A DNA stretch of 64,000 nt, from assembly GCF_014137855.1 (NCBI RefSeq), contig NZ_JACGWT010000004.1, forward strand, positions 62,001 through 126,000, written 5' to 3'. Both the position numbers and the translations under genes were made by a program. Below the pieces are notes generated by a model. The model ran no database searches, was not told where the DNA came from, and was given only the letters and a program-made list of their open reading frames with translations. This DNA is from Microlunatus kandeliicorticis. GTDB taxonomy: Bacteria; Actinomycetota; Actinomycetes; Propionibacteriales; Propionibacteriaceae. How positions within the stretch are numbered: the stretch's first letter is position 1; each line of letters opens with the position of its first letter. Below are positions 6,573 to 21,926 of this stretch, in pieces.

Positions 6573-6603
6573 CGGTGTCCGCGGACGGCCCCAGGGTGCG
6601 GAC

Positions 6604-7527: not shown

Positions 7528-7598
7528 CGGGAGGAGGTAGCGCCGATGTGGTGGGTCCGTGAGGCCCGGGAACACGCCGGGCGGGGGAGACGTCGAGG

Positions 7599-7670: not shown

Positions 7671-7716
7671 GTGCTGGTGGAGTCGCGCTCCACCGATGGA
7701 GTTGTGCCGTGCTGCG

Positions 7717-7787
7717 AGGTGGGTACGGGATTTGAACCCGTGTACACGGATTTGCAGTCCGTTGCCTCGCCTCTCGGCCAACCCACC
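7717..7787 (-). tRNA. tRNA-Cys (anticodon GCA)
   Basis: Minus-strand cloverleaf with acceptor GGTGGGT/ACCCACC, anticodon stem ACGGA/TCCGT around loop CTGCAAA (anticodon GCA), and the U73 discriminator expected for tRNA-Cys. Middle gene of the Gly-Cys-Val cluster. Confidence 0.95.
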
Positions 7788-7824
7788 GTGTCTGGGAGAC
7801 CTCCTGGAGTGGAGACCCGCTCCG

Positions 7825-7897
7825 AGCGGACGACGGGATTCGAACCCGCGACCCTCACCTTGGCAAGGTGATGCTCTACCAACTGAGCCACGTCCGC
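7825..7897 (-). tRNA. tRNA-Gly (anticodon GCC)
   Basis: Minus-strand cloverleaf with acceptor GCGGACG/CGTCCGC, anticodon stem TCACC/GGTGA around loop TTGCCAA (anticodon GCC) and U73. First gene of the leftward tRNA cluster, downstream of the promoter at 7951-7980. Confidence 0.95.
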
Positions 7898-7950
7898 GCG
7901 ACCACCTCGGTTCCGGCCTCTCGGTCGGCCCCTCTGCGGTGCGGTGAGCA

Positions 7951-7980
7951 ACCATAGCCGAGCGCCCGACGGCGAAACAA
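7951..7980 (-). promoter_or_regulatory. Promoter of the tRNA-Gly-Cys-Val cluster
   Basis: On the minus strand TTGTTT (7980-7975), an 18-base spacer and TATGGT (7956-7951), about 54 bases before tRNA-Gly. It is the best sigma-70-like match in the gap and points away from the aminotransferase gene. Confidence 0.55.
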
Positions 7981-8022
7981 ACCGGCTCGATCCGGCGGCT
8001 CGGCGTCGGCGATGATGGGGTC

Positions 8023-8949: not shown

Positions 8950-9003
8950 GCCGGACGCGGGCGTCGTCCGCCCGAGGGACCCCCGGGGCGGTGGCGATCC
9001 GTT

Positions 9004-9032
9004 TCGACAGGCGTCGGCGGCTCACGTAGAGT
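9004..9032 (+). promoter_or_regulatory. Promoter of tRNA-Val(CAC)
   Basis: TCGACA at 9004-9009, a 17-base spacer and TAGAGT at 9027-9032, ending 13 bases before the tRNA. It lies outside the integrated element, so the tRNA keeps its own promoter after integration. Confidence 0.6.
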
Positions 9033-9045
9033 GTGCTTCCGCCGC

Positions 9046-9117
9046 GGGCGATTGGCGCAGTGGTAGCGCGCTTCGTTCACACCGAAGAGGTCACTGGTTC
9101 GAACCCAGTATCGCCCA
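9046..9117 (+). tRNA. tRNA-Val (anticodon CAC), integration target
   Basis: Complete cloverleaf: acceptor GGGCGAT/ATCGCCC, anticodon stem CTTCG/CGAAG around loop TTCACAC (anticodon CAC), T arm GGTTCGAACC and discriminator A. Its last 25 bases plus four more are repeated at 21898-21926, so this is the attachment gene of the element; integration leaves an intact tRNA on the left. Confidence 0.95.
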
Positions 9118-9121
9118 CCCG
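9093..9121 (+). repeat. attL: left 29-bp core repeat inside tRNA-Val(CAC)
   Basis: Starts ACTGGTTCGAACC in the T arm and ends four bases beyond the tRNA. Identical to 21898-21926. The repeat is bounded by differing bases on both sides (C versus G before it, T versus C after it). Confidence 0.93.
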
Positions 9122-9285
9122 TATGTTCCCTAGTCAGAGCAGATTTCTGGCGAGGTGATCCCCCCGACGTGCAGCCCACGTGCAGGAACGATCGAGCGGC
9201 TGCCTTCCGGACGCGAAACGGCCCCGACCGGTGCTGGAACACCAGATCGAGGCCTCACACGACGAACCTGTATCGGAGGACCGTC

Positions 9286-9585
9286 ATGCTGACGGAGAAC
9301 ACTAGCGCCCCTACGGTCACCTACGACCCCCACGACGACCTGACCCACCGCCACCCCGGCTGGACCGTCACCGCGGCCGCCGAAGGCCCCGCAGAGCTCA
9401 TCCTGTGGGCTCGCCGCGAGATCCGCCTCAACCCGCGCGCGACAAGCCACGGCTGCCACCGCCGTCTGCTGGCACACGCGGTCGCCCACGTCGACCTGCA
9501 CCTCGAGGGCCGGCACGATCCGTTCACGGCCGAGGAGGAGCGACAGGCCGACGCGCTGTCCCGGGTCAAGCTCGAGCGCGCGTAG
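9286..9585 (+). CDS. Small ImmA/IrrE-like protein with degenerate HExxH motif
   Basis: 99-residue protein. The segment HRRLLAHAVAHVDLHLEG (about 63-80) followed by EEERQADALSRVKL has the layout of ImmA/IrrE metallopeptidases of actinobacterial phages and islands: an HExxH helix and a downstream acidic residue. Here the motif reads HAVAH, so the catalytic Glu is absent and hydrolysis is doubtful. In active relatives the protease cleaves a repressor; a binding-only role is possible. Start ATG 9286 has GGAGGA at a good distance; the frame opens earlier but that part lacks a ribosome site. First gene of the left plus-strand module. Family call is tentative. Confidence 0.5.
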   Translation: MLTENTSAPTVTYDPHDDLTHRHPGWTVTAAAEGPAELILWARREIRLNPRATSHGCHRRLLAHAVAHVDLHLEGRHDPFTAEEERQADALSRVKLERA

Positions 9586-9595
9586 GGCGGGCAGG

Positions 9596-9811
9596 ATGGC
9601 GGTCGTGCAGTGGTTCACGACGGCCGAGGTGGCCGAGCGCCTGCGAACTACCCGTGAGCAGGTGCAGCTGCTCTGCCAGACCGGGCAGATTGCCTGGCGG
9701 CCGCAGAACCCGTCGGCCCGCCGCCGCATCTACCTCATCTCCGACGAGGCCATCGCCGCGTACGAGGAGGCGACCACCCGGCCCGCGACGATCCGCCCGC
9801 TCCGGCGGTAG
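9596..9811 (+). CDS. Helix-turn-helix protein, excisionase/MerR-like
   Basis: 71-residue DNA-binding protein. FTTAEVAERLRTTREQVQLL (residues 7-26) is a winged helix-turn-helix of the HTH_17 class, and RRRIYLISDEAIAAYEEA provides the usual wing and capping helix. Such proteins act as recombination directionality factors or small repressors. Start ATG 9596, ten bases after the previous stop; a GTG at 9605 is an alternative. It overlaps the next gene by one base (TAG/GTG), so the left module is probably one transcript. This is one of three HTH_17-like proteins in the element. Confidence 0.7.
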   Translation: MAVVQWFTTAEVAERLRTTREQVQLLCQTGQIAWRPQNPSARRRIYLISDEAIAAYEEATTRPATIRPLRR

Positions 9812-10521
9812 TGGGAGTCTGCAAGACTCAGCCGGTGCCGATCCCGATCCCGCCAGAGCTGGGGCGCTCGCCCGTCACCTGCCCGCAATGCGGCACGGTC
9901 GCCGAGCAGGACTGGTTACGGCTGAGTGGCTACTCGGTGCAATCGGGCAACAAGCAGCTTCCCGACTTCACTTGGTGCATCTGTCGGGCCTGCTCGAAGC
10001 CGAGCCTGTGGGAGGTGAATGCCCTCATCTCGGCGGACGATGGTGAGGACGTACTGAAGGTCGGCCGACAGGTGTGGCCGCTTCGTGGCGGGCCGCCACC
10101 CCACGAGGACATGCCGGCAGATGCCCGCCGGCATTACGAGCAGGCGCGCGAGGTCCTGAACGCTTCACCGCAGGCAGCCTCTGCCCTGCTCCGTGTCGCG
10201 ACGGAATCCCTAGTGCTCGAGCTACTCGGGACCTCAGCGAAGTTGAATGACGCGATCGGAGAACTCTTGTCCTCGGGCCGAATCACCCCGAGAGTCCAGC
10301 AGGCTTGTGACGTCCTCCGAGTTACGGGCAATGACGCTCTTCATCCAGGCCAGATCGACGAGGCCGAGGAGGCTGCCGACGCAACGGCTCTATTCTCCCT
10401 GGTGAATCTCATCGTCGAGCAAGCGATCACGGAGCCGAAAACTGTTGCAGCGATGTATGCGGCGCTTCCGGCGACCAAACGCGAGGCCATCGAGAAGCGC
10501 GATCAGCGGAATCACAGCTAA
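9811..10521 (+). CDS. DUF4145-domain protein with N-terminal zinc ribbon
   Basis: 236-residue protein. The N-terminal 65 residues carry two Cys pairs (CPQCG near 24 and CRAC near 58) that can form a zinc ribbon; the C-terminal part (about 110-215) matches the DUF4145 pattern, with SPQAASALLRVATESLVLEL, LNDAIGELLSSGRI and GNDALHPGQ. DUF4145 proteins often occur in mobile and defence-related loci, but their biochemical role is not settled. The gene starts at GTG 9811 on the previous stop. Bases 10200-10500 are clearly less GC-rich than the window, a sign of transfer. Confidence 0.7.
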   Translation: MGVCKTQPVPIPIPPELGRSPVTCPQCGTVAEQDWLRLSGYSVQSGNKQLPDFTWCICRACSKPSLWEVNALISADDGEDVLKVGRQVWPLRGGPPPHEDMPADARRHYEQAREVLNASPQAASALLRVATESLVLELLGTSAKLNDAIGELLSSGRITPRVQQACDVLRVTGNDALHPGQIDEAEEAADATALFSLVNLIVEQAITEPKTVAAMYAALPATKREAIEKRDQRNHS

Positions 10522-10543
10522 CCCTTCGCAATAGCATTTGCTC

Positions 10544-10723
10544 ATGGCCGATCAAACTTGCCCGGCGTGCTACGCACACTTCGACGCCGCGCCAAAGCCA
10601 ATCCCCTCGGAGCCGAAGTCGATCGCGACTTGGGAGGGCGTCATCTCTCGACCACCCGGTCCACCCGAGCGAGGCGAATTGACCTGCCCGAGTTGCGGTT
10701 TGATCTACGAGCAACAGCTCTAG
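10544..10723 (+). CDS. Small zinc-ribbon protein
   Basis: 59-residue protein with two CxxC pairs (CPACY near residue 6 and CPSCG near 48) separated by a Pro-rich linker, a layout for one zinc site. Function unknown. ATG 10544 preferred over TTG 10538; no clear ribosome site, but it follows the DUF4145 gene by 22 bases. Its TAG stop shares the tetramer CTAG with the stop of the convergent HNH gene. Confidence 0.5.
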   Translation: MADQTCPACYAHFDAAPKPIPSEPKSIATWEGVISRPPGPPERGELTCPSCGLIYEQQL

Positions 10724-11061
10724 CGGTGCGCCGCCCGGCCTGCCGCCGAGAGGTTGCAGGAGACGTGCTCCGGCCCGCGAGTGACCGCCCGGTCGTTGTC
10801 GTCGTGGCCCAGATGCCACAGTGTCCCAGGGACGATCGGGCGGCGGCAGTCCGGCCGCCAGCAGAGGACGAGCTCGCCGGCGTCGATCCTGGCCTGCCAG
10901 GACGCCCTGAGCGCCCTGTGTGGCCCTCCGTAGCCGCGTTCGCTGCTGGCGCCGCGTTGGCGGTCCTGCTGACGCGCACACGGGCCGCATAACCCGCCGC
11001 GGGCGCCTGACGCAACCAGCGTCGGGCAGCCTGGCCGGGAGCAGGCTCGCCGGCCAGTCAC
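10720..11061 (-). CDS. HNH endonuclease-like protein
   Basis: 113-residue protein with an N-terminal Cys cluster (CSRPGCP, then CGPC) and a C-terminal beta-beta-alpha-metal region: LCWRPDCRRPI, WHLGHDD near residue 83 and GPEHVSCN near 99. This is the arrangement of small phage HNH proteins, which often lie beside terminase genes and help genome packaging; no terminase is present here. The last metal ligand is an Asn or is lost, so activity is uncertain. Start GTG 11061 overlaps the preceding stop by four bases (GTGA). Last gene of the long minus-strand operon. Confidence 0.75.
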   Translation of the reverse strand: MTGRRACSRPGCPTLVASGARGGLCGPCARQQDRQRGASSERGYGGPHRALRASWQARIDAGELVLCWRPDCRRPIVPGTLWHLGHDDNDRAVTRGPEHVSCNLSAAGRAAHR

Positions 11062-11501
11062 CCTCGTCCGTAGATCCGGTCGACGGTGGGTCGGTCGTCG
11101 AGCGGGCTCATGCCCCAGACACGCCAGGTGCCGTCGTCCAGGCGCACCATGGTCAGCCAGGCGCCTTCTCGAATCTGGGCAGTTCCGAATGCTCGGACGT
11201 TGTGCTCGGTGTTCGCTCGCAGCTTCACCCAGCAGATGTCGGGGTCCGTTGAAGGTTCCGCGTTCAACGCGACGCCGAATCCGTCTGTGAGCCGAGCGAC
11301 GTCGTCCAGATCCCAGTTTGCAGGCTGGTAGGTCAGCTGCTCGGCGGTGCCACGGTCGCCGGTGGGGTCGAGACCACCTAGCCAGAGGGCGGCGACTTGA
11401 ACCGGGATCGTCAGGTCGATGCGGCCATCAGGAAAGAACGCGTTGAGCGCGTCCTGTTCGTTGACGATCTCGAGCGGGTCGGGCATCTCGTTGTCGGTCA
11501 T
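11058..11501 (-). CDS. Hypothetical protein after the tape measure gene
   Basis: 147-residue acidic soluble protein that I do not recognise. It is rich in Asp and Trp (LWLGGLDP, DGTWRVWGMSP) with no signal peptide or membrane segment. It begins four bases after the tape measure stop and overlaps the HNH gene by four bases. In a siphovirus this position would hold a distal tail protein, but the length and composition do not support that. Confidence 0.65.
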   Translation of the reverse strand: MTDNEMPDPLEIVNEQDALNAFFPDGRIDLTIPVQVAALWLGGLDPTGDRGTAEQLTYQPANWDLDDVARLTDGFGVALNAEPSTDPDICWVKLRANTEHNVRAFGTAQIREGAWLTMVRLDDGTWRVWGMSPLDDRPTVDRIYGRG

Positions 11502-11505
11502 GGCT

Positions 11506-14500
11506 TCATCGTCTCCCCATCGCTGACAGCCTGGCCAGCGTTTGCTGGCCGGCGAGTACGGCCGCCGCCTCTGCGGTGAGAGAGGACGGGAAGCTGTTGT
11601 GGAAAGTGTTGTGCTGGTGGTGCTCCTGCACGACTCGCGGCTGCGACCCGGCCATCATCGACGCGAACCGCTGCGGCAGGCGCCGGTTGTTGACGTCGTC
11701 CATGAACCGGGTGCCCCAGAACCGGTGCGCCGCCGCCGACTGCATGAACTCCTCATTGGAGGCGGCGACGAGGATGCTGTCCGAAGTGGTTGAGCCCGGA
11801 CCGTAGATCGGGCCACCCGCGGCCCTGCGGACGGTCGGCTGCGCCACGTTGAGGCCGATGTTGTCCGCCGCCGACTGCAGCGACTTCTGCGCCGAGTCGA
11901 GCGACGACACCAGCGACTTCCCGCCCTGCAGGATCTGCGTCGCGATGTCACCGCCGGCGAGGGTGCCCTGCGACGCGATCTCCTGGACGAGCGGCTCAGA
12001 CAGGCCAGCCTTGCGGAGCTGGTCGAGCTGCTTCTGGAAGGCGGTGATGTCCTTCGCGCCCTGCCGCATCTGGTCGAGCCAGTCGAGGACCCCGCCGGCC
12101 ATCTGCCCGCCGTTGGCGCCGTAGAACGACTCCGACGTCTGCCGGGCCGAGTCGGCGAGCGCCTTCTGCGTCTCGAGCAGCTTCGCCTGCGCGTCCTTGA
12201 GCTTGTCCGTCGCAGCCTTCGACTTCTCGGCGGCCTTGTTGTAGGCGTCCTGCGCGGACTTGCGGGTCTTGTCCCGCGCCTTGACCTTGTCGTTCGCCTT
12301 CTGCAGGTCGGCGGAGTATTCGCGGTCCAGCTTCGCGAGCTTCGCCCGGGCCGCGGTCAGGTCACGGTCGGCCTTCGTGGTGCCCTTGGTGGCTGCGGCC
12401 CGCTTCTGCAGGACCGCGATCCGGTCCTTCTGCCGCTTCTGCTCTTCGGCATGATCAGACCGAAGCTCGTCGCGTGCGTCGACGGCCCGGTTGTAGTCCC
12501 GCTTCGCGGCGTTGTACCGGTCGGTGGGGACGCGGGCGGCCCGGTTGGCGTCCTTCACGGCCTTCGCGGCCAGTGTCATTGCCCGGGCCGCGGCGGAGAT
12601 CTCGCCGAGCGGGTTGCTGCTGGACGTCAGGAGCCGGCGAATGGTCGTGTAGTCGACCTGCCCGCCGGAGGCGTAGCCGACGAGGCCACCGTCGGCGAAG
12701 GCCGGCATGCGGCCGGTGGCATTCATGTACTGCAACCGGTCGACGCCGATGCTCTCCGTCGAGCTGGCCTTGACCACGAACTCCTTGTTCGACAGCAGCG
12801 CCGGGATGCTGTCGGAGGTGGTGGTGCCGGGGCCCTGGATGTAGCCGCCGGTCGCCACCTGAGCCTTCTTGCCGACGCGGCTGATCGTGTTGTTGATCGT
12901 CGTGTGGGTGGTGGTGATGCTGACCGACTTGCTGTGGATCGAGTCGATGAGGTTCTTCGCCGACCGGGCGGCGTCGAGCTGCGCGGAGGTAAGGATCCTC
13001 GGGTTCTTGCCCTTGATGGAGTCGAGGTAGCGCTGCGCGGCCGCCGCGACCGACTTGGTGTTGTCGCCGGTCTTGATCTTCGGGTCGACGTCCTTGATCG
13101 CCCGCATGAAGCCCTGGGCCTCCTTGGAGACCTTCGGCGCGTTCGACTGGGCGTCGATCTTCGGGCTGGCCTTCTTCTTGTCGAGCTTGTTCAGCTCCGC
13201 CAGGGCCGCCTGCGCGCCCTCCTTCTTCCAGACGGCGATGATGCGCGCCTGCTGCTCCTTCGGGAGCTTGGACAGGGAGGTGCTGAACTTCTCGACCTCC
13301 TGCTTCTGGACGGCCAGGCCGAACGCGTCGATCTCCGTGGTCACCTTGGCCGGTACGAGGCCGTAGGAGTCAGCCAGTGCCCGGGCAGCCTTGCCGGTGA
13401 GCCCGGCGTCCTCGGCAGCCTTCACGAACTGGGCCCGCACCGCCTTCGTCGCGCCGACGATCTTCGCGTTGCCGGCTCCCTGCGCGGCCAGCGATGACAC
13501 ATAGGCCTTGCCAGCGGAGGCGAGCCCGTTGAGGGCGTCGATGTTCTCGCGGCCCTTCGCGGTGTTGTCGGAGAGGGCCGTGCCCGCCTTGTTCGTGTAG
13601 TCGGCGTTGGCCTTGAGGGTGGCGCTGGCCTGGTCGATTGAGGCGGCGTAGGCCGAGTGGGCTGAGATCGTCGACTGGTAGGCGTTGCCCTGGTCGAACA
13701 GCGACGAGGCGAGCTGCTGGTTCTGCTCGGCCGTCCGGGCGAGCGGACGCGACAGCGCCTCGAGCGCTTCCCGCGCCGAGGAGAACGCGGTCGTCTGCTC
13801 CCGCTGCGCATCGGTCATGCCGTCGACGGCCGTCGAGTTCGCGATCGCGGCCGGCGTCAGCTTGCCCGCCAGGATCGCCGACACCTGGTCAGCGTTGAAG
13901 CCGGACTCCGATAGGGCAGCGGAGAACTGCTGCACATCGTGTGAGTTGATCTTCCCTGAGGCCCTGAGGAGACGCTGGTAGCCGGTCACGGCGGCGTCGA
14001 GGCTGCCGCCGGACACCATCTTCGCGAGGCTGGTGTCGACGTTCGTGATGGCCTCGCGCTGCTTCTCCAGACCCTGCTGGCCCGGGATCAGCGCCTCACG
14101 GAACGTCTCGTACCCCGCCTGCAGCTTGCCGAGCGAGGTGGTCTGCTGGACGTTGCTGACGGCCAGCGCCTCACCGAGGCTGCTGACCCGGTTGGTGGTC
14201 TGGAACAGCGAGTCGCTGATCGCGTCGGCAGCGTTGGTCTTGCCGATGGTGTCGAGAGTGAGCGCGGTGTCGTCACCGGTCTTTGCCAGCTGCCTGAGGG
14301 CGTCGGTGACCTGGTCAACGGAGGCGACCTTCTGACCCAGGGCGTCGAGCCCTGTGCCGGCCGCCCCGACCGCGACGAGAGCGATCGCGGCAGGGCCGGC
14401 TGCCGAGGCGAGCGCCGTGAGCCTGCCGGCGCTGTTTAGGTCGATCAGCGCCGCTCTTGTGGCGGCGGCGGTGGTCGTGAGCTTGATGAGGGCGCCGACA

Positions 14501-15852
14501 CCGAGACCAGCCGCGGCGACGATGGCCGCGCCCATCAGGGTTGCGTGCTGCGCACCCGCGGGCAGGTAGTTGAACTCATTGACGAGCTCGGTCGCGCCCT
14601 GCGTGAGGTCCCGCAGAGCCTTGGTCCCGCCCGAGCCGGCACCGATCAAAGCGGTCTCAACGGACCCGCGGAAAGTCTCGAGGTCGCCGTTGAGGTTGTC
14701 CATCTTCGTCGACGCAACCTCGGCGGCCGTGCCGAAGTTCGCGAACTCGGCGCCCATGTCCTTTAGGCCAGCGCTGCCAGCCTTCAACAGGATGGGTGCG
14801 ACCCGGATGGCGTCGGAGCCAAAGATCTGGCTGAGCGCCTGGTTGCGGTCTCCCTCCGACAGCCCAGACAGGGCGCCGTTCAGCTCGTCCATCAGAGGAC
14901 CGATGTCCTTGATGTTGCCCGACGCGTCGTAGGCCGAGATGCCGAGCTTGTCGAGCGCCTTCGCCCCGGACCCAACCGGCGCGTACAGCGACTGCAGCAT
15001 CGTCTTGAAGCTCGTGCCGGCGTCGGAGCCGGTGTAGCCCTGCTTCGCGAACAGGGCCAGCGACTCGACGGTCTCGTCGATGCTCAGGCCGTACTGCTTC
15101 GCGACGCCGCCGGACTGACGCAGCGCCATCGCGAGGTCCGACACCTCACCGGAGGCGGTCCCTGCACCCTGGGCGAGCAGGTCCGCAACGTGGGTGACGT
15201 CGGAACCTCGCAGCTGGAACTGGTTCATCGCCGACGCAGCCGTCTCAGCCGCCTCGCCGACCGACTGGTTGCCAGCAGCGGCGAGGTTCAACGCGCCGGC
15301 CAGGCCGCCGCCGAGGACGTCCTTCGCGGACACGCCAGCCTTGAGGAGCTCCTCAACCCCACCAGCTGCGTCCGTTGCCGAGTACTTCGTCGCAGCGCCA
15401 GCCTTGACCGCCTCAGCCCGCAACGCCGACAGGTTCTGCCGGGCATCGGCACCCGTCGACGCGACCCCAGACATCGCCTGGTCGAAATCAGCGGCCGACT
15501 TGACCGCGACACCGAAGCCAGCCGCAGCCGCCAGACCGACCACACTGAAACCGCGGCCGACCTTGTCCAGCGTGTCCCGGTGGGCGGTGACGGTCGAGGT
15601 GATCTTGCCGTACTTCTGCGCCGCGATCAGCTGCTTCTCCGACGCCGCGACCTCTGCCGCCGCGGCTTGGGTCCGGACGGCAGCGCGGACCTTCTCCGCG
15701 TCGGCGGCCTTGAGCGCGGAAGCGGCGTTCGTCTTGTTCGCAGCGTCGGCGACCGCGGCGGTCTTGCGGATTTCGCCCTGCGCCTGCGTCAAGCCGGCCC
15801 GCAACCCGCTGATATCGGCGCGGAGCTTCGCGACAATGGATCTCTCGGCCAT
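11506..15852 (-). CDS. Phage tail tape measure protein
   Basis: 1448-residue protein. Such proteins fill the tail tube and set its length. The N-terminal 80 residues are coiled-coil; residues about 100-440 form the TP901-type core (DFDQAMSGVASTGAD, TKYSATDAAGGVEELLKAG, FKTMLQSLYAP, ALSQIFG); two hydrophobic stretches lie near 470-540; long Lys/Ala coiled-coil follows, with a second one near 1180-1310. A motif GPG(T/S)TTSDSI followed by SN(K/E)EF occurs twice, near 1080 and 1385. Start ATG 15852 has AGGAGG six bases upstream. The frame is intact. No other tail gene flanks it: the usual chaperones, tube and tip genes are missing, which is the oddest feature of the element. Confidence 0.92.
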   Translation of the reverse strand: MAERSIVAKLRADISGLRAGLTQAQGEIRKTAAVADAANKTNAASALKAADAEKVRAAVRTQAAAAEVAASEKQLIAAQKYGKITSTVTAHRDTLDKVGRGFSVVGLAAAAGFGVAVKSAADFDQAMSGVASTGADARQNLSALRAEAVKAGAATKYSATDAAGGVEELLKAGVSAKDVLGGGLAGALNLAAAGNQSVGEAAETAASAMNQFQLRGSDVTHVADLLAQGAGTASGEVSDLAMALRQSGGVAKQYGLSIDETVESLALFAKQGYTGSDAGTSFKTMLQSLYAPVGSGAKALDKLGISAYDASGNIKDIGPLMDELNGALSGLSEGDRNQALSQIFGSDAIRVAPILLKAGSAGLKDMGAEFANFGTAAEVASTKMDNLNGDLETFRGSVETALIGAGSGGTKALRDLTQGATELVNEFNYLPAGAQHATLMGAAIVAAAGLGVGALIKLTTTAAATRAALIDLNSAGRLTALASAAGPAAIALVAVGAAGTGLDALGQKVASVDQVTDALRQLAKTGDDTALTLDTIGKTNAADAISDSLFQTTNRVSSLGEALAVSNVQQTTSLGKLQAGYETFREALIPGQQGLEKQREAITNVDTSLAKMVSGGSLDAAVTGYQRLLRASGKINSHDVQQFSAALSESGFNADQVSAILAGKLTPAAIANSTAVDGMTDAQREQTTAFSSAREALEALSRPLARTAEQNQQLASSLFDQGNAYQSTISAHSAYAASIDQASATLKANADYTNKAGTALSDNTAKGRENIDALNGLASAGKAYVSSLAAQGAGNAKIVGATKAVRAQFVKAAEDAGLTGKAARALADSYGLVPAKVTTEIDAFGLAVQKQEVEKFSTSLSKLPKEQQARIIAVWKKEGAQAALAELNKLDKKKASPKIDAQSNAPKVSKEAQGFMRAIKDVDPKIKTGDNTKSVAAAAQRYLDSIKGKNPRILTSAQLDAARSAKNLIDSIHSKSVSITTTHTTINNTISRVGKKAQVATGGYIQGPGTTTSDSIPALLSNKEFVVKASSTESIGVDRLQYMNATGRMPAFADGGLVGYASGGQVDYTTIRRLLTSSSNPLGEISAAARAMTLAAKAVKDANRAARVPTDRYNAAKRDYNRAVDARDELRSDHAEEQKRQKDRIAVLQKRAAATKGTTKADRDLTAARAKLAKLDREYSADLQKANDKVKARDKTRKSAQDAYNKAAEKSKAATDKLKDAQAKLLETQKALADSARQTSESFYGANGGQMAGGVLDWLDQMRQGAKDITAFQKQLDQLRKAGLSEPLVQEIASQGTLAGGDIATQILQGGKSLVSSLDSAQKSLQSAADNIGLNVAQPTVRRAAGGPIYGPGSTTSDSILVAASNEEFMQSAAAHRFWGTRFMDDVNNRRLPQRFASMMAGSQPRVVQEHHQHNTFHNSFPSSLTAEAAAVLAGQQTLARLSAMGRR

Positions 15853-15956
15853 CAGCGACCTCCTGAATGTTTGAACCCTTCGCGGGGTAGAGCGCCCCCA
15901 CCGGCGGTGACCGTGAGGGGGGTGCTTGGGGCACCGGCCCCATCTCGGGAGGCGGT

Positions 15957-15999
15957 GGCAGCCGACGGAGTGCGGTCCCGCGCGCGTCCGTCGGCTGCC
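15957..15999 (-). repeat. 13-bp perfect inverted repeat upstream of the tape measure gene
   Basis: GGCAGCCGACGGA (15957-15969) pairs with TCCGTCGGCTGCC (15987-15999) across a 17-base loop, in the only long gap (198 bases) of the minus-strand operon. No T-run follows on either strand, so it may be an RNA processing or attenuation hairpin or a protein site rather than a plain terminator. Confidence 0.6.
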
Positions 16000-16050
16000 G
16001 CCTGGTCGCCGGAGCGATGCGGCGACGTCTGTGGGGTGGGAGGCATCGGG

Positions 16051-16434
16051 TTACCAGCTCCCGTTGACCTTGAGGATCTCGCCGCGCTTCTCCTTCTCGT
16101 AGCGTTCGCGCTGCCGCTCGTCCATGCCTGCGACGCGTTGCGCCTCGATGTGCTCGGCGTCCTCGGCCCGCTTGCGCTCGGCTGCTTCGCGTTCACGTCG
16201 GCGTTCCTGCATGACGGCGCTGACGGAGCGCGGGCGATGCTTTTCGCGGTCTGCACGGTCTGCTGCGGCCTTGGCCCGCAGATGCTCGGTCGCGGCCCAT
16301 CGGGCCTCGTGCGCGGCCTGGTCGAGCACCTCGAGCGTGAGCTCGGCCCGCTTGTCTCCACGCTTGGCTGCGGAGCGGAGCCGGTTCCGCTCGAGCAGCG
16401 TGTCCTGGACTGAGTACGGCTCCATGCCGCTCAT
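16051..16434 (-). CDS. Hypothetical charged coiled-coil protein
   Basis: 127-residue highly charged protein, mainly Arg, Glu and Ala; almost the whole length predicts as one long helix (for example ERRREREAAERKRAEDAEH). Unrecognised. The ATG at 16434 overlaps the previous stop by four bases (ATGA); a second Met three residues on is an alternative. A scaffold- or chaperone-like part with the downstream tape measure protein is conceivable but is only position-based inference. Confidence 0.65.
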   Translation of the reverse strand: MSGMEPYSVQDTLLERNRLRSAAKRGDKRAELTLEVLDQAAHEARWAATEHLRAKAAADRADREKHRPRSVSAVMQERRREREAAERKRAEDAEHIEAQRVAGMDERQRERYEKEKRGEILKVNGSW

Positions 16435-16700
16435 GCCGGGTCCGCCAGCTGGGCGTGGACGAGGCCGAGCTGGACCTGCGACGCGTAGCCGTAGTTGCTG
16501 CCGAGGTCGCCGCGGTGGGCTTGGGCCTGGTCGAGCGCCGCCTCCGCGGAGGCGTAGTGGCTGCCAGTGCCGGCCGTCCGGCCGAGGGCGGCGTGGGCGC
16601 TAATCATCAGCCAGTCAGTGCCGGAGGTGATCCGGTTGGGGCGGACGGCGTCAGCGAGGAGCGCTTCGGCGGTTGCGATGTGCTGGGCGGGTGTGGGCAT
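16431..16700 (-). CDS. Small hypothetical protein
   Basis: 89-residue soluble, Ala-rich helical protein, unrecognised. Its pattern (HIATAEALLADA, MISAHAALGRTA, YASAEAALDQAQAH) suggests helix-hairpin pairs like tetratricopeptide repeats. ATG 16700 has AGGAG eight bases upstream and is 14 bases after the previous gene; it overlaps the next gene by four bases. Confidence 0.65.
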   Translation of the reverse strand: MPTPAQHIATAEALLADAVRPNRITSGTDWLMISAHAALGRTAGTGSHYASAEAALDQAQAHRGDLGSNYGYASQVQLGLVHAQLADPA

Positions 16701-16714
16701 CAGGGTCTCCTGAG

Positions 16715-17689
16715 TCAGGCGTGGGCGAGGGACTGGTGTCCCCAGGTGCGGCGGCGCCGTTCGGCGGCCTCGGCGTCGGGATCGTTGGACTGCTGGCCCG
16801 GTCTGGCCTTCGCTCGCGCGGTGGCATGGGCTTCGTCGACGAGCTGGTTGTGGAGCTCGGTCATCTGCTCGAGGGTCGGCACCCAGACGGCAAGGTCGTC
16901 GCGGCCGATCATCCACAGCAGGACGTCGTCGGGTGTGGCGTCGGAGTTGGTGGTGTCGGGCCACGGCGGCCGGGCGCGGACGACGTTGCCGCGGGCATCC
17001 CGCTGGCCGGTGTTCGTGTTGCCGATCATGTACTCGGGCAGCCCGGGCCAGACAGCGGCGAGGTTCGGTGACAGGGCGAGGACGTCCCACCACCGGCGGA
17101 GCTGGTTGTTGAAGGTGAACCGGTCGACCTCGGTCAGGCCGTGCGTGAACAGGGTGCGCTGCGCCTGCCGGATCTGGTGGTAGTCGCGGCGGAGCTGGCC
17201 GGCGGTCTGGTACAGCTCGACCTGCCCAGCGTCGATTGCCGCCTCAGCCGTGACCGGCACCCGACCCATGCCCTGCAGCTCGGCGAACACTGACTTGACC
17301 CGCTTGTCGAGAAACTGGCACATCTGGTCGAAGCCGGCCTGGATGTCGCGGTCGACAGCGCTGCCGAGGGAATCGGCCAACGTCTGCATCTCGGCGCGCA
17401 TGGTGTCCCAGGCGGCGTCGGTGGCGGAGGCCTTCGCGTACTGGGCGAGCAGGTTGTCGGCCAGCCCGTCACCGTCCGTGAGGCCGGCGAAGATCTTGTC
17501 GGTCAGCTTCCGCGCCGCGCCCGGGTGGTCGATCTTGGCGGTGTCGGCGGCGATGCGGTCGAGGATGGCCAGCGTCGACAGGACGTCTCCGATTTCACCC
17601 AAGGCTTTGGTGAGGATCGGATCGTTCGAGGCGTAGCGGGGCAGCCGACTGCGCTCGGGTGTCGAGATCGGCTTGATCGGGTGGATCAT
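16715..17689 (-). CDS. Hypothetical element protein, 324 residues
   Basis: Mostly helical soluble protein with no family I can name. Residues about 20-170 are helical (LSTLAILDRIAADTAKI, NLLAQYAKASATDAAWDTM), and Trp-rich loops follow near 200-260 (RRWWDVLALSPNLAAVWPGLPEYM, VLLWMIGRDDLAVWVP). Start ATG 17689 has GGAAGG upstream and overlaps the previous stop as ATGA. Two small genes separate it from the tape measure gene. A structural or packaging-redirecting role would be speculation. Confidence 0.65.
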   Translation of the reverse strand: MIHPIKPISTPERSRLPRYASNDPILTKALGEIGDVLSTLAILDRIAADTAKIDHPGAARKLTDKIFAGLTDGDGLADNLLAQYAKASATDAAWDTMRAEMQTLADSLGSAVDRDIQAGFDQMCQFLDKRVKSVFAELQGMGRVPVTAEAAIDAGQVELYQTAGQLRRDYHQIRQAQRTLFTHGLTEVDRFTFNNQLRRWWDVLALSPNLAAVWPGLPEYMIGNTNTGQRDARGNVVRARPPWPDTTNSDATPDDVLLWMIGRDDLAVWVPTLEQMTELHNQLVDEAHATARAKARPGQQSNDPDAEAAERRRRTWGHQSLAHA

Positions 17690-18069
17690 CCGCGGCCTTC
17701 CTGTCGGTCCTGTCGGTCGATGACGAGAGCCTCGACAGCCGCGAGGTCGAACGTCCACGAACGTCCAACCTTGCGGCCGCCGAGTTGATCGGCGAGGTTG
17801 CGCACTTGCCGCTCGGAAACCCCTACCAATCGAGCGGCGTGCGCGCTGCCAATTCGGTCTCGCACAACTGAGTCAACCGGATCAGGCGGTGGCGGAACTT
17901 CCGCAGTTCCGTTAGGGGAAATCGCCTTGAGCGCAGCCATCAACTTCTCGTACCGATCGTCGGCCATTCCGTTCACCGTCCAGAGCGGATCCTTGGCGAA
18001 GGACAGCCAATACCTCAAGAGCGGAGCCTCCCGGGCGGAGATCAGCAGCGCCTGCTCGACCTTGATCAC
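17686..18069 (-). CDS. Helix-turn-helix protein, Xis-like C-terminus
   Basis: 127-residue protein. The C-terminal 50 residues (AARLVGVSERQVRNLADQ, then GRSWTFDLAAVEAL) form an HTH_17-type DNA-binding domain; the N-terminal 70 residues are helical and unrecognised. Start GTG 18069 has GGAGG upstream and overlaps the preceding open frame as GTGA. It could be a regulator of the operon or bind the repeat cluster 200-360 bases upstream. Confidence 0.65.
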   Translation of the reverse strand: MIKVEQALLISAREAPLLRYWLSFAKDPLWTVNGMADDRYEKLMAALKAISPNGTAEVPPPPDPVDSVVRDRIGSAHAARLVGVSERQVRNLADQLGGRKVGRSWTFDLAAVEALVIDRQDRQEGRG

Positions 18070-18437
18070 CGGCCGACCTCCACCCACACCGAAGCCCTGG
18101 GGGACTGGGGCAAGCCCCACCCCCCAGACAGCGACCGACGGAGAGGTGACTCGCCGTCCGCGAGGCTGAGTTTTGCGGCGGGCCCCGGGCGTGTCGAACC
18201 TCCAGACCCGTACACACTTCTTTTCGCCTCCCCATCGGTCAGCGCCCTAGGGAGTGGCTGGGGATGATGGGGCAGGGGGTAACGGGTCATGACCGTTCCC
18301 CTGGTCGTGGCCGCGGGTGTTGCGCTTGTGGGGGCGTTACCGTTCCCCGTTCCTTTACAGAGGGGAACGGGGTAACGGGCACGCACGGCGTTCCTGGGGA
18401 ACGCTGGGGAACGGTCGGGGAACGGGGGAACGATCAT
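18066..18437 (-). CDS. Candidate 123-residue protein across the repeat cluster
   Basis: Open frame linked to both neighbours by 4-base overlaps (ATGA at 18437, GTGA at 18069), the same joining used along the rest of the operon, which argues that it is translated. The predicted protein is Pro/Arg/Gly-rich and low in hydrophobic residues, and its first half is written by the GGGGAACG repeat array, so it may instead be a leader or spacer. No family recognised. Confidence 0.35.
   Translation of the reverse strand: MIVPPFPDRSPAFPRNAVRARYPVPLCKGTGNGNAPTSATPAATTRGTVMTRYPLPHHPQPLPRALTDGEAKRSVYGSGGSTRPGPAAKLSLADGESPLRRSLSGGWGLPQSPRASVWVEVGR
18275..18432. repeat. GGGGAACG repeat cluster (iteron-like)
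   Basis: GGGGAACG occurs at 18362, 18396, 18406, 18417 and 18425, the last four spaced 10, 11 and 8 bases. Inverted copies are at 18293-18301 (CCGTTCCCC) and 18341-18348 (CGTTCCCC). GGGGTAACGGG variants occur at 18276 and 18369, with an inverted partner CGTTAC at 18335. The CGTTACCGTTCCCC/GGGGAACGGGGTAACG pair forms a large imperfect palindrome. It lies immediately behind the RepA-like ATPase gene; an origin or an operator array are the main readings. Confidence 0.75.
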
Positions 18438-19474
18438 GCTGCCTGTCCGTTCCTCGGGTACGGCTTGATCAGCTCGTGCGGTGACCGCTCGGTGACGTAG
18501 CCGTCGAGGATGAGGAAGTCGAGGGCTTGTCGCTTGCTGTCGGTCTTGCCCTTGGTTGCGGCGAGGATCCGCCGCTGAGCGAGCGGTCCGTACTCGGCCA
18601 GCGCCTCGCTGATGCGATGCATGAGTTCGGTGGGGCGGAAGTCTTCGTCGGTCTGGTGTGGTGGCGTGATGCTGACTTCGGCGAAGTCCTGGTTGTGGGA
18701 CTCGAGGACGAGGTCGCCGTACCAGTGGAGCCCGCTGCTTGAGGGCAGTGCGTGCGCGCGTAGCTGTCCTGGTCGGTCCTTGGCGATGTTGATGGTGGAG
18801 CGGCCGGTGAGGCCGATGCCGAAGGGTGTGCGGTTGGTGAGCGTGTATTGGGCGCCGGAGAGGCCGTTGAGCTTGTGGACGGCGCCGAGGGCGTATCGGC
18901 CGCGGTTCTCGCGGTCCTTAGTGACGTGGTCGAGGCTGACGACGGCGGCGCCGGTGTCGGTGATGCGTTTGGTGACGCGGCGGCCGAAGATGGCGGCGTC
19001 GGCGTTCTTGAGGGGGTCGAGGCCGTGGAGGCCCATGGCTTCGGTGATGCCGTCGAGAACGACCAGCCGGGGGCGTGTGTCGCCGAGGAGCTGTGTGAGG
19101 TCTCCGGCGTTGTCGTCGGCGCCGATGCCGGCGTCGGGGCGTAGGTAGTGGAAGTGGTTCCGGATCCGATCGGGGGTTGCGCCGAGGGTGAGGAGCCGGG
19201 TGACGACGCTGCCTTCGTCGTCCTCAAAGTCGATGTAGACCGCGTGGTGGCTGGCTGCCATCTCGTCGAGTGCCGCGGAGAGCGCAAACCAGGTCTTGCC
19301 GCCTTCGGTCTCGGAGACGACGGTGTGGCTCTTGCCTGGGTAGAACAGCCCGCGACCGTCGGTGCGGGATCCGACGGTCGGCTCGGGCCGCTGATAGGTC
19401 CCGCTCAGGACGGCCTCGAGGTCGACGGGCTGCCAGGGTCGACGGAGCTCGGTGTTGTCCTGGTCGTCGGTCAT
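18434..19474 (-). CDS. RepA/DnaB-like AAA ATPase (RecA fold)
   Basis: 346-residue P-loop ATPase resembling hexameric replicative helicases of the RepA/AAA_25 type. The nucleotide loop reads SHTVVSETEGGKTW near residue 56-69 (GKT present; first Gly of the classical P-loop replaced), the Walker B is RLVVLDGITEA near 145, and SLDHVTKD near 202 fits the third motif. The last 70 residues resemble a winged helix (RRILAATKGKTDSKRQALDFL). Start ATG 19474 overlaps the preceding stop as ATGA. It most likely drives replication of the excised element, with the repeat cluster just downstream as candidate origin. Confidence 0.78.
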   Translation of the reverse strand: MTDDQDNTELRRPWQPVDLEAVLSGTYQRPEPTVGSRTDGRGLFYPGKSHTVVSETEGGKTWFALSAALDEMAASHHAVYIDFEDDEGSVVTRLLTLGATPDRIRNHFHYLRPDAGIGADDNAGDLTQLLGDTRPRLVVLDGITEAMGLHGLDPLKNADAAIFGRRVTKRITDTGAAVVSLDHVTKDRENRGRYALGAVHKLNGLSGAQYTLTNRTPFGIGLTGRSTINIAKDRPGQLRAHALPSSSGLHWYGDLVLESHNQDFAEVSITPPHQTDEDFRPTELMHRISEALAEYGPLAQRRILAATKGKTDSKRQALDFLILDGYVTERSPHELIKPYPRNGQAA

Positions 19475-19719
19475 GGGGCGCACCAGCTTTCGGCGGCGAG
19501 ACTGGCGCGATGTCGGCAAAGCCGGGCAGCTTCGGCGAGCCGGGCGTCGGTGGCAGCGATCTCCTCGGCGGAAGCGAGTCCGACGAAGTCGCCGGGCTGG
19601 GGACGGCACTCCTCGAGTTGGTCTGCTCGTCGGAGCCAGTAACGTCGGGTGCCCTCGAGGACGGCGTCCTGGATTGCCCGGGTGACCGTGTCGGCCAGCC
19701 GGTAGTCGGCGACGCTCAC
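19471..19719 (-). CDS. Small hypothetical protein before the ATPase gene
   Basis: 82-residue helical protein, unrecognised; content is Ala, Arg and Glu rich (TVTRAIQDAVLEGTRRYWLRRADQLEE). The GTG at 19719 is chosen because it overlaps the previous stop as GTGA; an earlier in-frame start would overlap the neighbour by 70 bases. The gene overlaps the ATPase gene by four bases, so the two are probably co-translated. Confidence 0.6.
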   Translation of the reverse strand: MSVADYRLADTVTRAIQDAVLEGTRRYWLRRADQLEECRPQPGDFVGLASAEEIAATDARLAEAARLCRHRASLAAESWCAP

Positions 19720-20111
19720 CGGATTCGGGTCCCGTCGGACAGACCCCACCAGCGCCGCACGAGGCGCCCGCCAGCGCCGACCTGGCATCCCACGGGCTCG
19801 ATCAGCCCGGACCTCTGCGCGCCGGCCATGACTGCACCGACGTAGGCGCTGGCAGGCGGCTGGCCTACGAGGTCGAGGACTTGGTCGACGGTGAACGCGC
19901 GGCCGGTGAGGGCCAGTTGCTGCACTGCGGTTCGGGCTGAGGCGTACCAGGTGTCGCGGCTGGCGTTCTCGATGGCCAGGTCGACGCCTGTCGGTGTCGC
20001 GATTTGTCGGCGGGTGAAGCTACACTTCGCTTCAGCTTTGGTCGGCTGGACCTTGCTGCTGCTGGAGACGGCGCCCCTTACCGGGCGCCGTTTCGCATTC
20101 CGGCGCTTCAC
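19716..20111 (-). CDS. Hypothetical helical protein, possible DNA-binding
   Basis: 131-residue basic protein, unrecognised. A Lys/Arg-rich tail (first 35 residues) precedes a compact helical region with a possible winged-helix pattern (RAFTVDQVLDLVGQPP, AYVGAVMAGAQRSGLIEPVG, VRRWWGLSDG), as seen in small replication-initiation or regulatory proteins. Start GTG 20111 overlaps the excisionase-like gene stop as GTGA. Confidence 0.6.
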   Translation of the reverse strand: MKRRNAKRRPVRGAVSSSSKVQPTKAEAKCSFTRRQIATPTGVDLAIENASRDTWYASARTAVQQLALTGRAFTVDQVLDLVGQPPASAYVGAVMAGAQRSGLIEPVGCQVGAGGRLVRRWWGLSDGTRIR

Positions 20112-20296
20112 CCATTCACCCGCTCGAACAGTGCGTCGAGGTCGGAGCGCTTGAAGCGGAGTTCCTTTGGGCCGATGCGGTAGGCGACGAGGACCCCGTC
20201 GGCGATGTACCGACGCAGTGTTCGTGGCGAGAGGCTCGTGTAGTCCGATGCGGGCTGCATCTTGAGCCAGGTGGGCGCGTTGGGCTGTGCAACCAT
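20108..20296 (-). CDS. Excisionase-like helix-turn-helix protein
   Basis: 62-residue winged helix-turn-helix protein (YTSLSPRTLRRYIADGVLVAYRIG, then RFKRSDLDALF), the standard form of AlpA/Xis-type recombination directionality factors. Start ATG 20296 has AGGAGG eight bases upstream, the strongest ribosome site of the element, and the gene opens the long minus-strand operon. It is adjacent to the integrase gene, as excisionases usually are. Confidence 0.75.
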   Translation of the reverse strand: MVAQPNAPTWLKMQPASDYTSLSPRTLRRYIADGVLVAYRIGPKELRFKRSDLDALFERVNG

Positions 20297-20329
20297 GAGG
20301 GCTGCCTCCTCAGTTCGTCAGACGGAGGT

Positions 20330-20374
20330 GAGCGCCCCGGGCCGGGTTCTTGGCGGAGTCAGGCCCGGGCGCTC
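20330..20374 (-). promoter_or_regulatory. Strong hairpin in the leader of the excisionase-led operon
   Basis: GAGCGCCCCGGGCC (20330-20343) pairs with GGCCCGGGCGCTC (20362-20374) with one bulged C. On the minus strand it sits between the probable operon promoter and the AGGAGG of the first gene. A short T-rich run follows only on the plus strand (TTTGCTT), so it may instead stop plus-strand transcripts. Confidence 0.5.
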
Positions 20375-20450
20375 TTTGCTTGCTGACGCTTACGGTACGA
20401 GCGGGAAGTGACACGCGAGACCTGGTCGCACGCGGTCACGTCTTCCCTTT

Positions 20451-20589
20451 GTGTCCAACGGATGCAGGGGCCTCGGTGTCCACGTGACAGTCCTTGTCAG
20501 CGTGTGGCAGCGCAAATGGACGGGATGGGTTGGTGTCCAATGCGTTCGGTCATCACGGCTCGGTGAGGTGTCCAAAACTGACTTGTCCA
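20451..20589. repeat. Five TGTCCA direct repeats between integrase and excisionase genes
   Basis: GTGTCCA starts at 20451, 20476, 20533 and 20568 and TTGTCCA at 20583, all in one orientation, in the 332-base gap (20297-20628) behind the integrase gene. They could be sites for the excisionase or integrase. Apart from these and the hairpin at 20330 I see no gene in this gap. Confidence 0.5.
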
Positions 20590-20628
20590 CAGTTCCGCAT
20601 GCTGAGACACGGATGCAGTAGGAGGGGG

Positions 20629-21735
20629 TCAGACTCCTCGAGCCATCGCACTGAGGCGGCGGGCGATCTCCAGATCTCTGTCGGCAGCCGCGTGCTGGTA
20701 GCGAAGGGCGGCGCCCTGTGTGCTGTGGCCGAGGCGGGCCATCAGCTCGGCCATCGTCGCCCCGGTCATGGCTGCCATCGTTGCGCCAGTGTGGCGGAGG
20801 TCGTGCCAGCGGAGGTCCGGGCGGCCGGCGGCCGCTCTGGCCCGGTAGAAGACCTTGTAGAGAGTCGACGTCGCCATGTGGTTGACACCATCGGCGGCCG
20901 GGAAGAGAAGTGCGTCGTGGCCGGCTGCTGTGTGCTCTGTGAGGTGGGCCCGGATCACGGGCTCGAGGTGGTCGGGGTAGGCGACGTCGCGAATTCCTGC
21001 GTCTGACTTCGGGGTGCCGACGATCGTTTGCCCGTCGACCCGGACGACGGCGCGACGGACGCGGATCCGCTGGTTCTCGAGGTCGAGGTCGAAGCGGCGG
21101 AGCTCGGCCAGCTCGCCGAAGCGCAGTCCGCACCATGCGGCGAAGAGGACCATGAGGCGGTACCGCGGCGGCATGGCGCCGGCGATGGCGGCGATTTGCT
21201 CGAGTGTCGCGGGCTCGATGCGGTGGACGCGCTTTGCGTTCCCGGCACCTCGGATGTGAGCCGGGTTCGAAGGGATGAGCCCGTCCTGGACTGCTGAGCC
21301 GAGGATGGTCCGCAGCAGGGCGTAGGCATGAGCTCGGAGCGTTGGGGTCGCGCTTCCGAGGTCGGCGTGCCACTGCCGGATGGTCAGGGGCGTGAGGGAC
21401 CGAAGCGGCCGCTCGCCAAGGGCCGGCAAAATCTGTCGGTCGAGCAGCTGCCGATAGTGCTGCCTGGTCCTCGGCTTCAGCGTCCGGTCGGCCAACCAAG
21501 GCTCGGAGTAGGCGGCAACGGTCGGGGCGGCCTTCGATCCAGCGACGCGATCAGACGGCGGTGTCCACATGCCGGACTCAAGAAGACGGCGCTCGTCGGT
21601 GAGCCATGCCTCGGCGTCGATCTTGGCTTTGAAGGTCGATGAAGCGTGGTGAACGCGTCCCTGGGCGGTGTATCCCGCCTGCCAACGCTTGCTCGGAAGC
21701 CGTCGCAACTGGCCGAAAGAGCGTCGCGTTCCCAT
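20629..21735 (-). CDS. int: Tyrosine-type site-specific integrase
   Basis: 368-residue phage-type integrase that inserts and excises the element at tRNA-Val. It has an AP2-like N-terminal arm-binding segment (RWQAGYTAQGRVHHASSTF), a SAM-like core-binding domain about residues 70-160, and a catalytic domain with the first Arg in CGLRFGELAEL, the H-x-x-R box in WHDLRHTGA, the His/Trp position in LGHS, and the nucleophile Tyr in ALRYQHA near residue 347. ATG 21735 is chosen; the frame opens earlier but without a ribosome site. It reads inwards from attR, 162 bases away, the usual orientation. Confidence 0.9.
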   Translation of the reverse strand: MGTRRSFGQLRRLPSKRWQAGYTAQGRVHHASSTFKAKIDAEAWLTDERRLLESGMWTPPSDRVAGSKAAPTVAAYSEPWLADRTLKPRTRQHYRQLLDRQILPALGERPLRSLTPLTIRQWHADLGSATPTLRAHAYALLRTILGSAVQDGLIPSNPAHIRGAGNAKRVHRIEPATLEQIAAIAGAMPPRYRLMVLFAAWCGLRFGELAELRRFDLDLENQRIRVRRAVVRVDGQTIVGTPKSDAGIRDVAYPDHLEPVIRAHLTEHTAAGHDALLFPAADGVNHMATSTLYKVFYRARAAAGRPDLRWHDLRHTGATMAAMTGATMAELMARLGHSTQGAALRYQHAAADRDLEIARRLSAMARGV

Positions 21736-21897
21736 GATCAACTCCGCCCCGCGTGCGACATACGTGCAAGATATCAGTCCATTAGTGCCCCGAGTGGCTG
21801 CTTGTGTCAACGTCACGAAGGCGCTACTGTCCATCTCGTTGGGCGCTTCACCAGGCATTTCACGCTCAGCACACAGTGTCGCCCCGAGGTGCGGGGG

Positions 21898-21926
21898 ACT
21901 GGTTCGAACCCAGTATCGCCCACCCG
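21898..21926 (+). repeat. attR: right 29-bp core repeat, tRNA-Val 3' fragment
   Basis: Exact copy of 9093-9121. Only the T arm and acceptor 3' side of a tRNA are present, so it is not a gene. It marks the right end of the element; chromosomal sequence resumes at 21927. Confidence 0.92.

Follow-up and report, generated by a model that had tools for sequence, protein, structure and literature searches.

A 12.8-kb element at a tRNA-Val gene of Microlunatus kandeliicorticis carries a tape measure gene as its only clear virion gene and may be a phage satellite

We analyzed a 64,000-nucleotide stretch of the Microlunatus kandeliicorticis genome (contig NZ_JACGWT010000004.1; hereafter the window), in which a discrete integrated element of 12.8 kb, with its own integrase and attachment (att) sites, lies at a tRNA-Val(CAC) gene (Table 1). 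A preliminary description, made from the sequence letters, had stated that perfect 29-bp direct repeats from this tRNA gene enclose the element, and both the tRNA call and a repeat search bear this out, with the terminal bases of the tRNA gene forming the core of the att repeats. Of the first 20 entries in the list of exact 24-mer repeats of the window, 6 represent the att repeat and 14 an unrelated tandem array at 25.27-25.40 kb. The G+C content per kilobase is 65-71% within the element and above 71% in most kilobases outside it. Read inward from attR on the minus strand, the gene order is integrase, excisionase (Xis)-like helix-turn-helix (HTH) protein, gene M, gene L, Rep, the iterons, genes J, I, H, and G, the tape measure protein (TMP), a 147-aa protein, and an HNH protein; the attL end carries three plus-strand genes. 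The largest of these three, a DUF4145 gene, was identified as the defense gene PD-T7-4, which corrects an earlier annotation. The identities previously proposed for the integrase, Xis-like protein, Rep ATPase, TMP, and HNH protein were upheld by profile matches (PF00589, PF12728, AAA_25, PF10145/phrog_1533, and phrog_1808, respectively), and the iteron-like array is real, with seven copies of GGGGAACG in the element, all inside 18294-18432. Two gene starts needed correction, comparison with relatives placing that of Rep best at 19474 and that of the integrase at about 21735. Genes were called with a codon-composition caller, which misses small genes (HNH, J, and L in the window), trims starts, and called at most one gene in the element parts of loci L051 and L175. 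The downstream acyltransferase gene was used to look for an empty site in the genus; it had matches in 5 of 20 genomes, our own included, and no tRNA was found in the five acyltransferase loci fetched for this comparison.

Table 1. Features of the integrated element and its attachment site (window coordinates)
Feature	Position	Strand	Evidence or remark
tRNA-Val(CAC), host attachment gene	9046..9119	+	ARAGORN
attL, 29-bp core at tRNA-Val 3' end	9093..9121	+	perfect direct repeat
Small protein, weak IrrE/M78 peptidase similarity	9286..9585	+	PF06114 E=0.038 (below cut-off); peptidase_U41 0.0075
HTH_17 DNA-binding protein (predicted)	9596..9811	+	PF12728 3.6e-6; excisionase phrog_2907 3.8e-4
PD-T7-4 (DUF4145) anti-phage defense protein	9811..10521	+	PADLOC 2.5e-57; PF13643 3.4e-12; homolog in L055
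HNH endonuclease	10720..11061	-	phrog_1808 2.8e-8; 44% identical to HNH of prophage G104
147-aa protein	11058..11501	-	start 4 bases beyond TMP stop; without family match
Tape measure protein (TMP), 1448 aa, intact	11506..15852	-	PF10145 1.9e-49; phrog_1533 9.3e-93
Inverted repeat between gene G and TMP, 16-nt arms, 94%	15954..16002	.	repeat search
Gene G, charged, 127 aa	16051..16434	-	55% over 30 residues to 85-aa gene adjoining I homolog in L169
Gene H, 89 aa	16431..16700	-	codon-composition gene call; longer 220-aa frame without family
Gene I, 324 aa	16715..17689	-	28% identical, E=2e-7, to L169 gene
Gene J, HTH protein, directly after iterons	17686..18120	-	PF12728 0.0039 (below cut-off); homologs after Rep in L172, L178
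Iteron array, probable replication origin	18270..18433	.	GGGGAACG seven times; relatives have repeats just behind rep
Rep, AAA_25/RepA-type ATPase	18434..19474	-	PF13481 2.6e-11; alignment A1
Gene L, 105 aa	19471..19788	-	homologs 40-44% before Rep in L049, L053, L178, L188, L212
Gene M, 131 aa	19716..20111	-	53% identical homolog in L055; phrog_27658 1.1e-5
Xis-like HTH_17 protein	20108..20296	-	PF12728 2.9e-9; phrog_66 4.1e-6
Tyrosine integrase	20629..21735	-	PF00589 3e-17; phrog_1 3.5e-64; frame open to 21858, start from relatives
attR, 29-bp core	21898..21926	+	perfect direct repeat

The TMP frame is open for 1448 aa, its PF10145 match spans profile positions 2-201 of 201, and each of its thirds has a third-position G+C within 0.87-0.93; the protein combines an N-terminal PhageMin_Tail domain with C-terminal segments resembling phage TMPs. 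It is the sole clear virion family of the element: Pfam and PHROG profile scans of the element genes recognized no large terminase (TerL), portal, capsid, other tail, or lysis gene; the preliminary description had likewise noted the absence of terminase, portal, capsid, and lysis genes. An "endolysin" profile (phrog_971) matches the TMP itself at 8.4e-15, and it also matches the TMPs of loci L046 and L045. The small genes upstream of the TMP that were scanned have no family, gene I occurs in 1 of 196 genomes of the order (our own), and the AlphaFold model of the 147-aa protein behind the TMP was too poor for use (mean predicted local distance difference test score, 42). Further, the Pfam scans gave no match to a relaxase or FtsK-type transfer gene among the element genes. 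Neither an own set of capsid, portal, and terminase, as expected of a capsid-forming phage-inducible chromosomal island (cf-PICI), nor remnants of further virion genes or broken frames, as expected of a decayed prophage, were found in the element. The inverted repeat between gene G and the TMP is strong and possibly represents a terminator or a regulatory hairpin.

Single-protein Rep scans of named-genome and viral contigs gave nothing, and a five-row alignment (A1) found relatives. Rep relatives are present in 11 of 196 genomes of the order at 1e-10 and in 10 of 394 genomes of the class at 1e-50 with A1 (our own genome included in both), and the A1 search yielded 74 Rep loci, 36 in named genomes and 38 in viral contigs. 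We examined the sequence behind rep by comparing the most frequent 8-mer in the following 600 bases with 300 shuffles of two-base blocks per locus. Repeats directly after rep were found in all 17 tested loci of the closer Rep group (top 8-mer P≤0.01); at the distant Rep loci L118 and L049, the top 8-mer was not unusual (P of 0.23 and 0.18, respectively). The iteron unit varies by clade, being of the GGGGAACG type in the window and Kribbella, CCTCGTCC in Nocardioides and Aeromicrobium, and CGTGTCCC in Mumia, and the five arrays printed share a layout of one-strand copies, an AT-containing center, and inverted copies. The Rep family also resides on two plasmids: (i) a 7.9-kb Streptomyces plasmid (Rep 49% identical), which carries an FtsK-type gene and has an iteron-like layout by eye with a repeat count that is not unusual (7 of 37 plasmid windows reach it), and (ii) a 12.9-kb Kineococcus plasmid, in which no iteron layout was seen and 52 of 62 plasmid windows reach the same repeat count.

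By our marker set, 12 of the 74 Rep loci carry a TMP, and 8 of these 12 are without a TerL, portal, or capsid marker and are not parts of phages, namely L176 (= L044, Kribbella rubisoli), L177 (Nocardioides caldifontis), L179 (= L047, G171, Aeromicrobium stalagmiti), L181 (an uncultured Nocardioides), L182 (Mumia xiangluensis), L187 (Micromonospora qiuiae), L202 (Catellatospora methionotrophica), and L213 (a viral-collection contig). An additional TMP-only Rep element is L046 (G025); the remaining four TMP-bearing loci (L212, L214, L216, and L236) have head genes or are parts of phages. The marker searches used a limited protein set, and "no head gene" here means that none was recognized. Including the window element, ten elements share (i) a Rep, that of the others being 46-61% identical to that of the window, (ii) repeats right after rep, and (iii) a TMP gene downstream, at 2.06-2.93 kb from rep in nine of the ten and at 4.6 kb in L176, with small genes between; no TerL, portal, or capsid gene was recognized in any of the ten. 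The preliminary description had proposed searching other species for this arrangement with unbroken genes, and the order of Rep, iterons, small genes, and TMP was indeed found in several genera, with intact relatives of the same design in L176, L177, L182, L187, L202, L213, and L046. The TMPs of the ten elements and of G050, a rep-less element described below, match PHROG tape measure profiles, weakly so in L176/L044 (7e-6) and L181 (1.3e-7).

We also scanned 108 other open reading frames (48 + 60) of ten such elements, G050 included, and these comprise integrases, excisionases, regulators, primase-like and small-terminase proteins, and unknown families; among the families listed (25 of 38 in the batch of 60), no TMP, head, or tail family except small terminase was present. 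A packaging clue is the small terminase of L177 (phrog_1496, 2.5e-25). Nine small or middle-sized genes around the TMPs, scanned singly, gave no family, and a 252-aa gene behind the L187 TMP matches a PHROG of unknown function. One conserved family for the 200-350-aa gene upstream of the TMP was considered and not upheld, only the L046/L047 pair (47%) and the window/L169 pair (28%) being clearly related. L046 and L047 (G025 and G171), which are related TMP elements with serine recombinases, are by eye both inserted beside tad-pilus-type genes.

Comparison of the TMPs suggests that the TMP in this slot of the rep elements is an exchangeable cassette, because TMPs are often unrelated where the Reps are close. 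Compared with the window TMP, four of the nine other rep-element TMPs show no match at 1e-3 and five match at 22-30% identity over part of their length. L046 and L213 have Reps that are 73% identical and TMPs without a match; L179 and L213, with Reps 84% identical, have TMPs that align over 82 residues only (the L179 frame is frameshifted); and L046 and L179, with Reps 76% identical, have TMPs 49% identical over 441 residues. The window element and L181 share the site, related integrases (61% identical), a related Rep, and repeats after rep, L181 having an att core with 1 mismatch before its integrase, and yet their TMPs are only 22% alike over 355 residues. On a Rep tree of 31 rows, with TMP labels assigned by hand from marker searches and locus readings, 5 changes are required to explain the TMP label, well-supported branches forcing no fewer than 3 of them, and TMP-only, head-carrying, phage, and empty elements are interleaved. 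Both descent and exchange appear from these comparisons to shape the TMP distribution.

Relatives of the window TMP itself (1e-40 or better) occur in 10 of 196 genomes of the order, our own included. Nine of the 10 places outside our genome are, by gene order, within long phage gene clusters, with terminase and portal profile-confirmed only in G037. The tenth, in G050, has an integrase 53% identical to that of the window, no related Rep, and a 923-aa TMP that is 48% identical to the window TMP over 456 residues; its order is integrase, Xis, small genes, a WhiB-like gene, a 260-aa gene, TMP, small genes, and contig end, and no head gene was recognized up to the TMP, the small genes after it being outside the scan. 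Our own genome holds one further piece of the window TMP, inside a second element, L055 (G000:C5:255000-274900, positions 5225-12480), whose att copies derive from tRNA-Arg(CCG) and lie 7.2 kb apart. Its integrase, Xis, and gene M are 57%, 42%, and 53% identical to those of the window element, and the PD-T7-4 gene is present in both. L055 also holds, by eye, an extra 485-aa recombinase-like gene.

Relatives of the window integrase were found in 81 of 198 genomes of the family at 1e-60, and 40 regions were fetched. One that looks like a cf-PICI is L118 (G243, 1057-10972), with a profile-confirmed TerL, portal, and capsid, no tail, and an integrase 63% identical to that of the window; 72-bp att repeats place it at the same tRNA-Val(CAC), flanked by the same att core. 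L157, satellite-like with head genes, and L049 appear cf-PICI-like by eye. L119 (profile-confirmed), L121, and L126 (both by eye) have a capsid gene and no recognized portal. Each of these three loci, like L185, combines an integrase or serine recombinase with a replication gene and one capsid gene; no portal or large terminase was recognized in them, and they are perhaps capsid-resizing satellites. Many other integrase relatives carry, by eye, a long relaxase-like protein. A home-made TMP profile found none in 985 proteins of 52 loci, but it is insensitive and also missed the TMPs of L044, L046, and L047 in this set. Our impression that integrase relatives rarely carry a TMP therefore comes from reading the list of proteins of at least 450 aa (3 of the 40 loci lack an integrase call).

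From the integration site, the gene content, and the conserved replicon plan that recurs with different TMPs in one slot, our favored explanation, at about even odds, is a phage satellite whose own TMP is built into tails otherwise supplied by a helper. The earlier view that a satellite fits better than random decay is supported by the recurrence of the architecture in several genera and by the intact TMP. As its anatomy indicates, the element would have been placed in tRNA-Val by the tyrosine integrase; excision by the Xis-like protein and replication from the iterons behind rep are strongly suggested. A helper siphophage would then induce the element, Rep would amplify it from the iterons, and the helper would supply head, terminase, tail tube, tail tip, and lysis functions, its head and terminase packaging the element. 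HNH proteins have a role in cos phages, and in G104 a single gene separates the HNH relative from a large terminase gene (judged to be one from its homology to G037); the HNH protein of the element may perhaps aid cos cleavage. By analogy with the phage-inducible chromosomal island-like elements (PLEs) of Vibrio cholerae, the full-length TMP would replace that of the helper and give satellite particles chimeric tails. Exchange of TMPs among related satellites would fit each of them to its helper, protect it from blocks aimed at the TMP, or alter tail length or entry. By the tape measure rule of 1.5 Å of tail per residue, 1448 residues would correspond to a tail of about 217 nm.

As reported for the PLEs (PMC12987554, Nature 2026), TMP and chaperone genes are present in all PLEs, tmp deletion lowered transduction by 96% in PLE1 and 99% in PLE4, and PLE11 and ICP1 particles differ in tail length. 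The preliminary description regarded a satellite with its own TMP as unusual; the strategy is not unheard of, because it was demonstrated for these Vibrio elements in 2026. The PLEs (PLE1, PLE4, and PLE11) and the window element both encode a TMP, that of the PLEs being needed for efficient transduction and leading to chimeric tails (PMC12987554). PLEs, however, add a tail assembly chaperone, in PLE11 a baseplate hub, and capsid remodeling, whereas no such partner was recognized here, and the tails of the PLE helper ICP1 are contractile (PMC12987554). The hosts here are actinobacteria.

Several observations weigh against the satellite reading. Neither a clear small terminase, given the weak, HTH-only match of gene J (phrog_57, 4e-5), nor the tail assembly chaperone of PLEs was recognized in the window element. 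Apart from the L055 remnant, nothing else in our own genome matches the window TMP at 1e-3, and no PF03354 terminase was found there (one family searched; the control was detected in 3 of 14 genomes). Nor was a helper, a cos/pac site, or a particle identified. In L181 and G050 the contig stops shortly behind the TMP, and the L179 (= L047) TMP is split by a frameshift into a frame without the N terminus. Reps 56-58% identical to that of the window also occur in the small phages or prophage-like elements L045, L212, and L214, so Rep alone proves nothing, and the replicon is common to phages and satellites. On the Rep tree, shuffled labels need a mean of 8.7 changes and come as low as the actual TMP label in 4 of 500 cases; this clustering means that part of the pattern is descent and not repeated gain. 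Finally, L055 is an internal deletion in which gene M runs into a frame continuing as the TMP C terminus; this fusion indicates an ancestor with the order Int-Xis-M-...-TMP, and it shows that such deletions do happen; single copies of the TMP elements may have arisen by deletion.

L045 (G124, about 700-16600) is itself a very small prophage-like element of about 16 kb (Rep 58% identical). It encodes TerL and a capsid protein along with genes that by eye resemble tail genes, and its TMP-like protein measures only 289 aa, a hint of a very short tail. L212 and L214 are small phages on viral contigs of 18.7 and 13.8 kb; TMP satellites may derive from them or use them as helpers.

A different role for the TMP, which we regard as unlikely, is that of a decoy that is not built into satellite particles and instead poisons helper tail assembly, with an outcome like that of Tai or Rta. 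The element does carry the defense gene PD-T7-4, and there are known cases of satellites and prophages that block tail assembly (Tai, PMC11364771; Rta, PMC12987554), but neither protein is described as a TMP in the passages on them in these papers. Moreover, full length would be unnecessary in a decoy, and the window TMP retains both its PhageMin_Tail domain and its phage-TMP-like C-terminal segments.

More doubtful still is a prophage remnant from which the head and most tail genes were deleted, a condition that the preliminary description tied to close relatives possessing the missing genes. Such relatives exist in part, as the close Reps of L045, L212, and L214 and the deletion form L055 attest, and the frameshifted L179 TMP and the clustered TMP label point the same way. 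Beyond Rep, however, all that our searches showed the window element to share with these head-and-tail relatives is gene L with L212 (43%) or a distant integrase with L045 (29%). The near-constant Rep-TMP spacing with often unrelated TMPs in ten elements, the lack of any recognized head or tail remnant between Rep and TMP, the intact coding signal of the window TMP, and the TMP-state changes forced on the Rep tree likewise argue against a remnant.

Actinomycete integrative and conjugative elements such as pSAM2 have a tRNA-borne int-xis-rep layout and transfer by an FtsK-type protein; the window element shares the layout at a tRNA but not, as far as was recognized, the FtsK-type protein. An integrative plasmid-like element of this or a mobilizable kind, which acquired a TMP unconnected with its transfer, is in our estimate the least probable explanation, since, despite the Rep family on the Streptomyces plasmid (with its FtsK-type gene) and the Kineococcus plasmid and the relaxase-like genes of many integrase relatives, no relaxase or FtsK-type match was obtained in the element, a TMP is present in many elements, and relatives with capsid or terminase genes speak for mobilization by phages.

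Returning to the satellite reading, three groups of satellites invite comparison. cf-PICIs likewise carry their own virion genes, some with a putative tmp (PMC12987554, Extended Data Fig. 10 legend), but they have capsid and packaging genes (PMC10690885), none of which was recognized in the window element. The Mulch and Flayer satellites of Streptomyces are also actinobacterial satellites of siphophages, MulchRoom having a tyrosine integrase, and differ in encoding capsid and packaging genes (PMC10690885). The candidate mycobacterial PICIs and phiRv1/phiRv2 (PMC10654092) resemble the window element in being actinobacterial, with an integrase and phage genes, three of the four drawn being at tRNA genes. 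Those candidates were defined by an integration gene plus a major capsid gene (PMC10654092), so a TMP-only element could not be found that way, and capsid-keyed satellite searches in general have this blind spot. Capsid-carrying satellites in actinobacteria are known or proposed (PMC10690885, PMC10654092), and we found no published actinobacterial satellite with a TMP as its only virion gene in the open-licence literature. Outside the element, the tandem array of the window (25268-25402) has a 23-base period and six copies, and its unit holds CGACGGGCTCAGCGAGCGCG.

In a broader and more tentative reading, for which we put the chances somewhat below even, the element would represent a widespread actinobacterial satellite type with an exchangeable TMP cassette as its only virion gene behind a shared rep-iteron replicon. 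TMP swaps would switch helpers and impose the satellite's own length or entry on helper tails, and elements with related integrases would swap in capsid modules, one replicon and integrase pool sampling different virion-assembly points. The first demonstration that a satellite-encoded TMP functions dates from 2026 and concerns a single Vibrio family (PMC12987554). If our reading is true, TMP-only elements in Gram-positive actinobacteria would make tail hijacking a general satellite strategy, and they would offer a clean system for asking what the TMP alone decides, be it tail length, helper choice, escape from TMP-directed defenses, or host entry.

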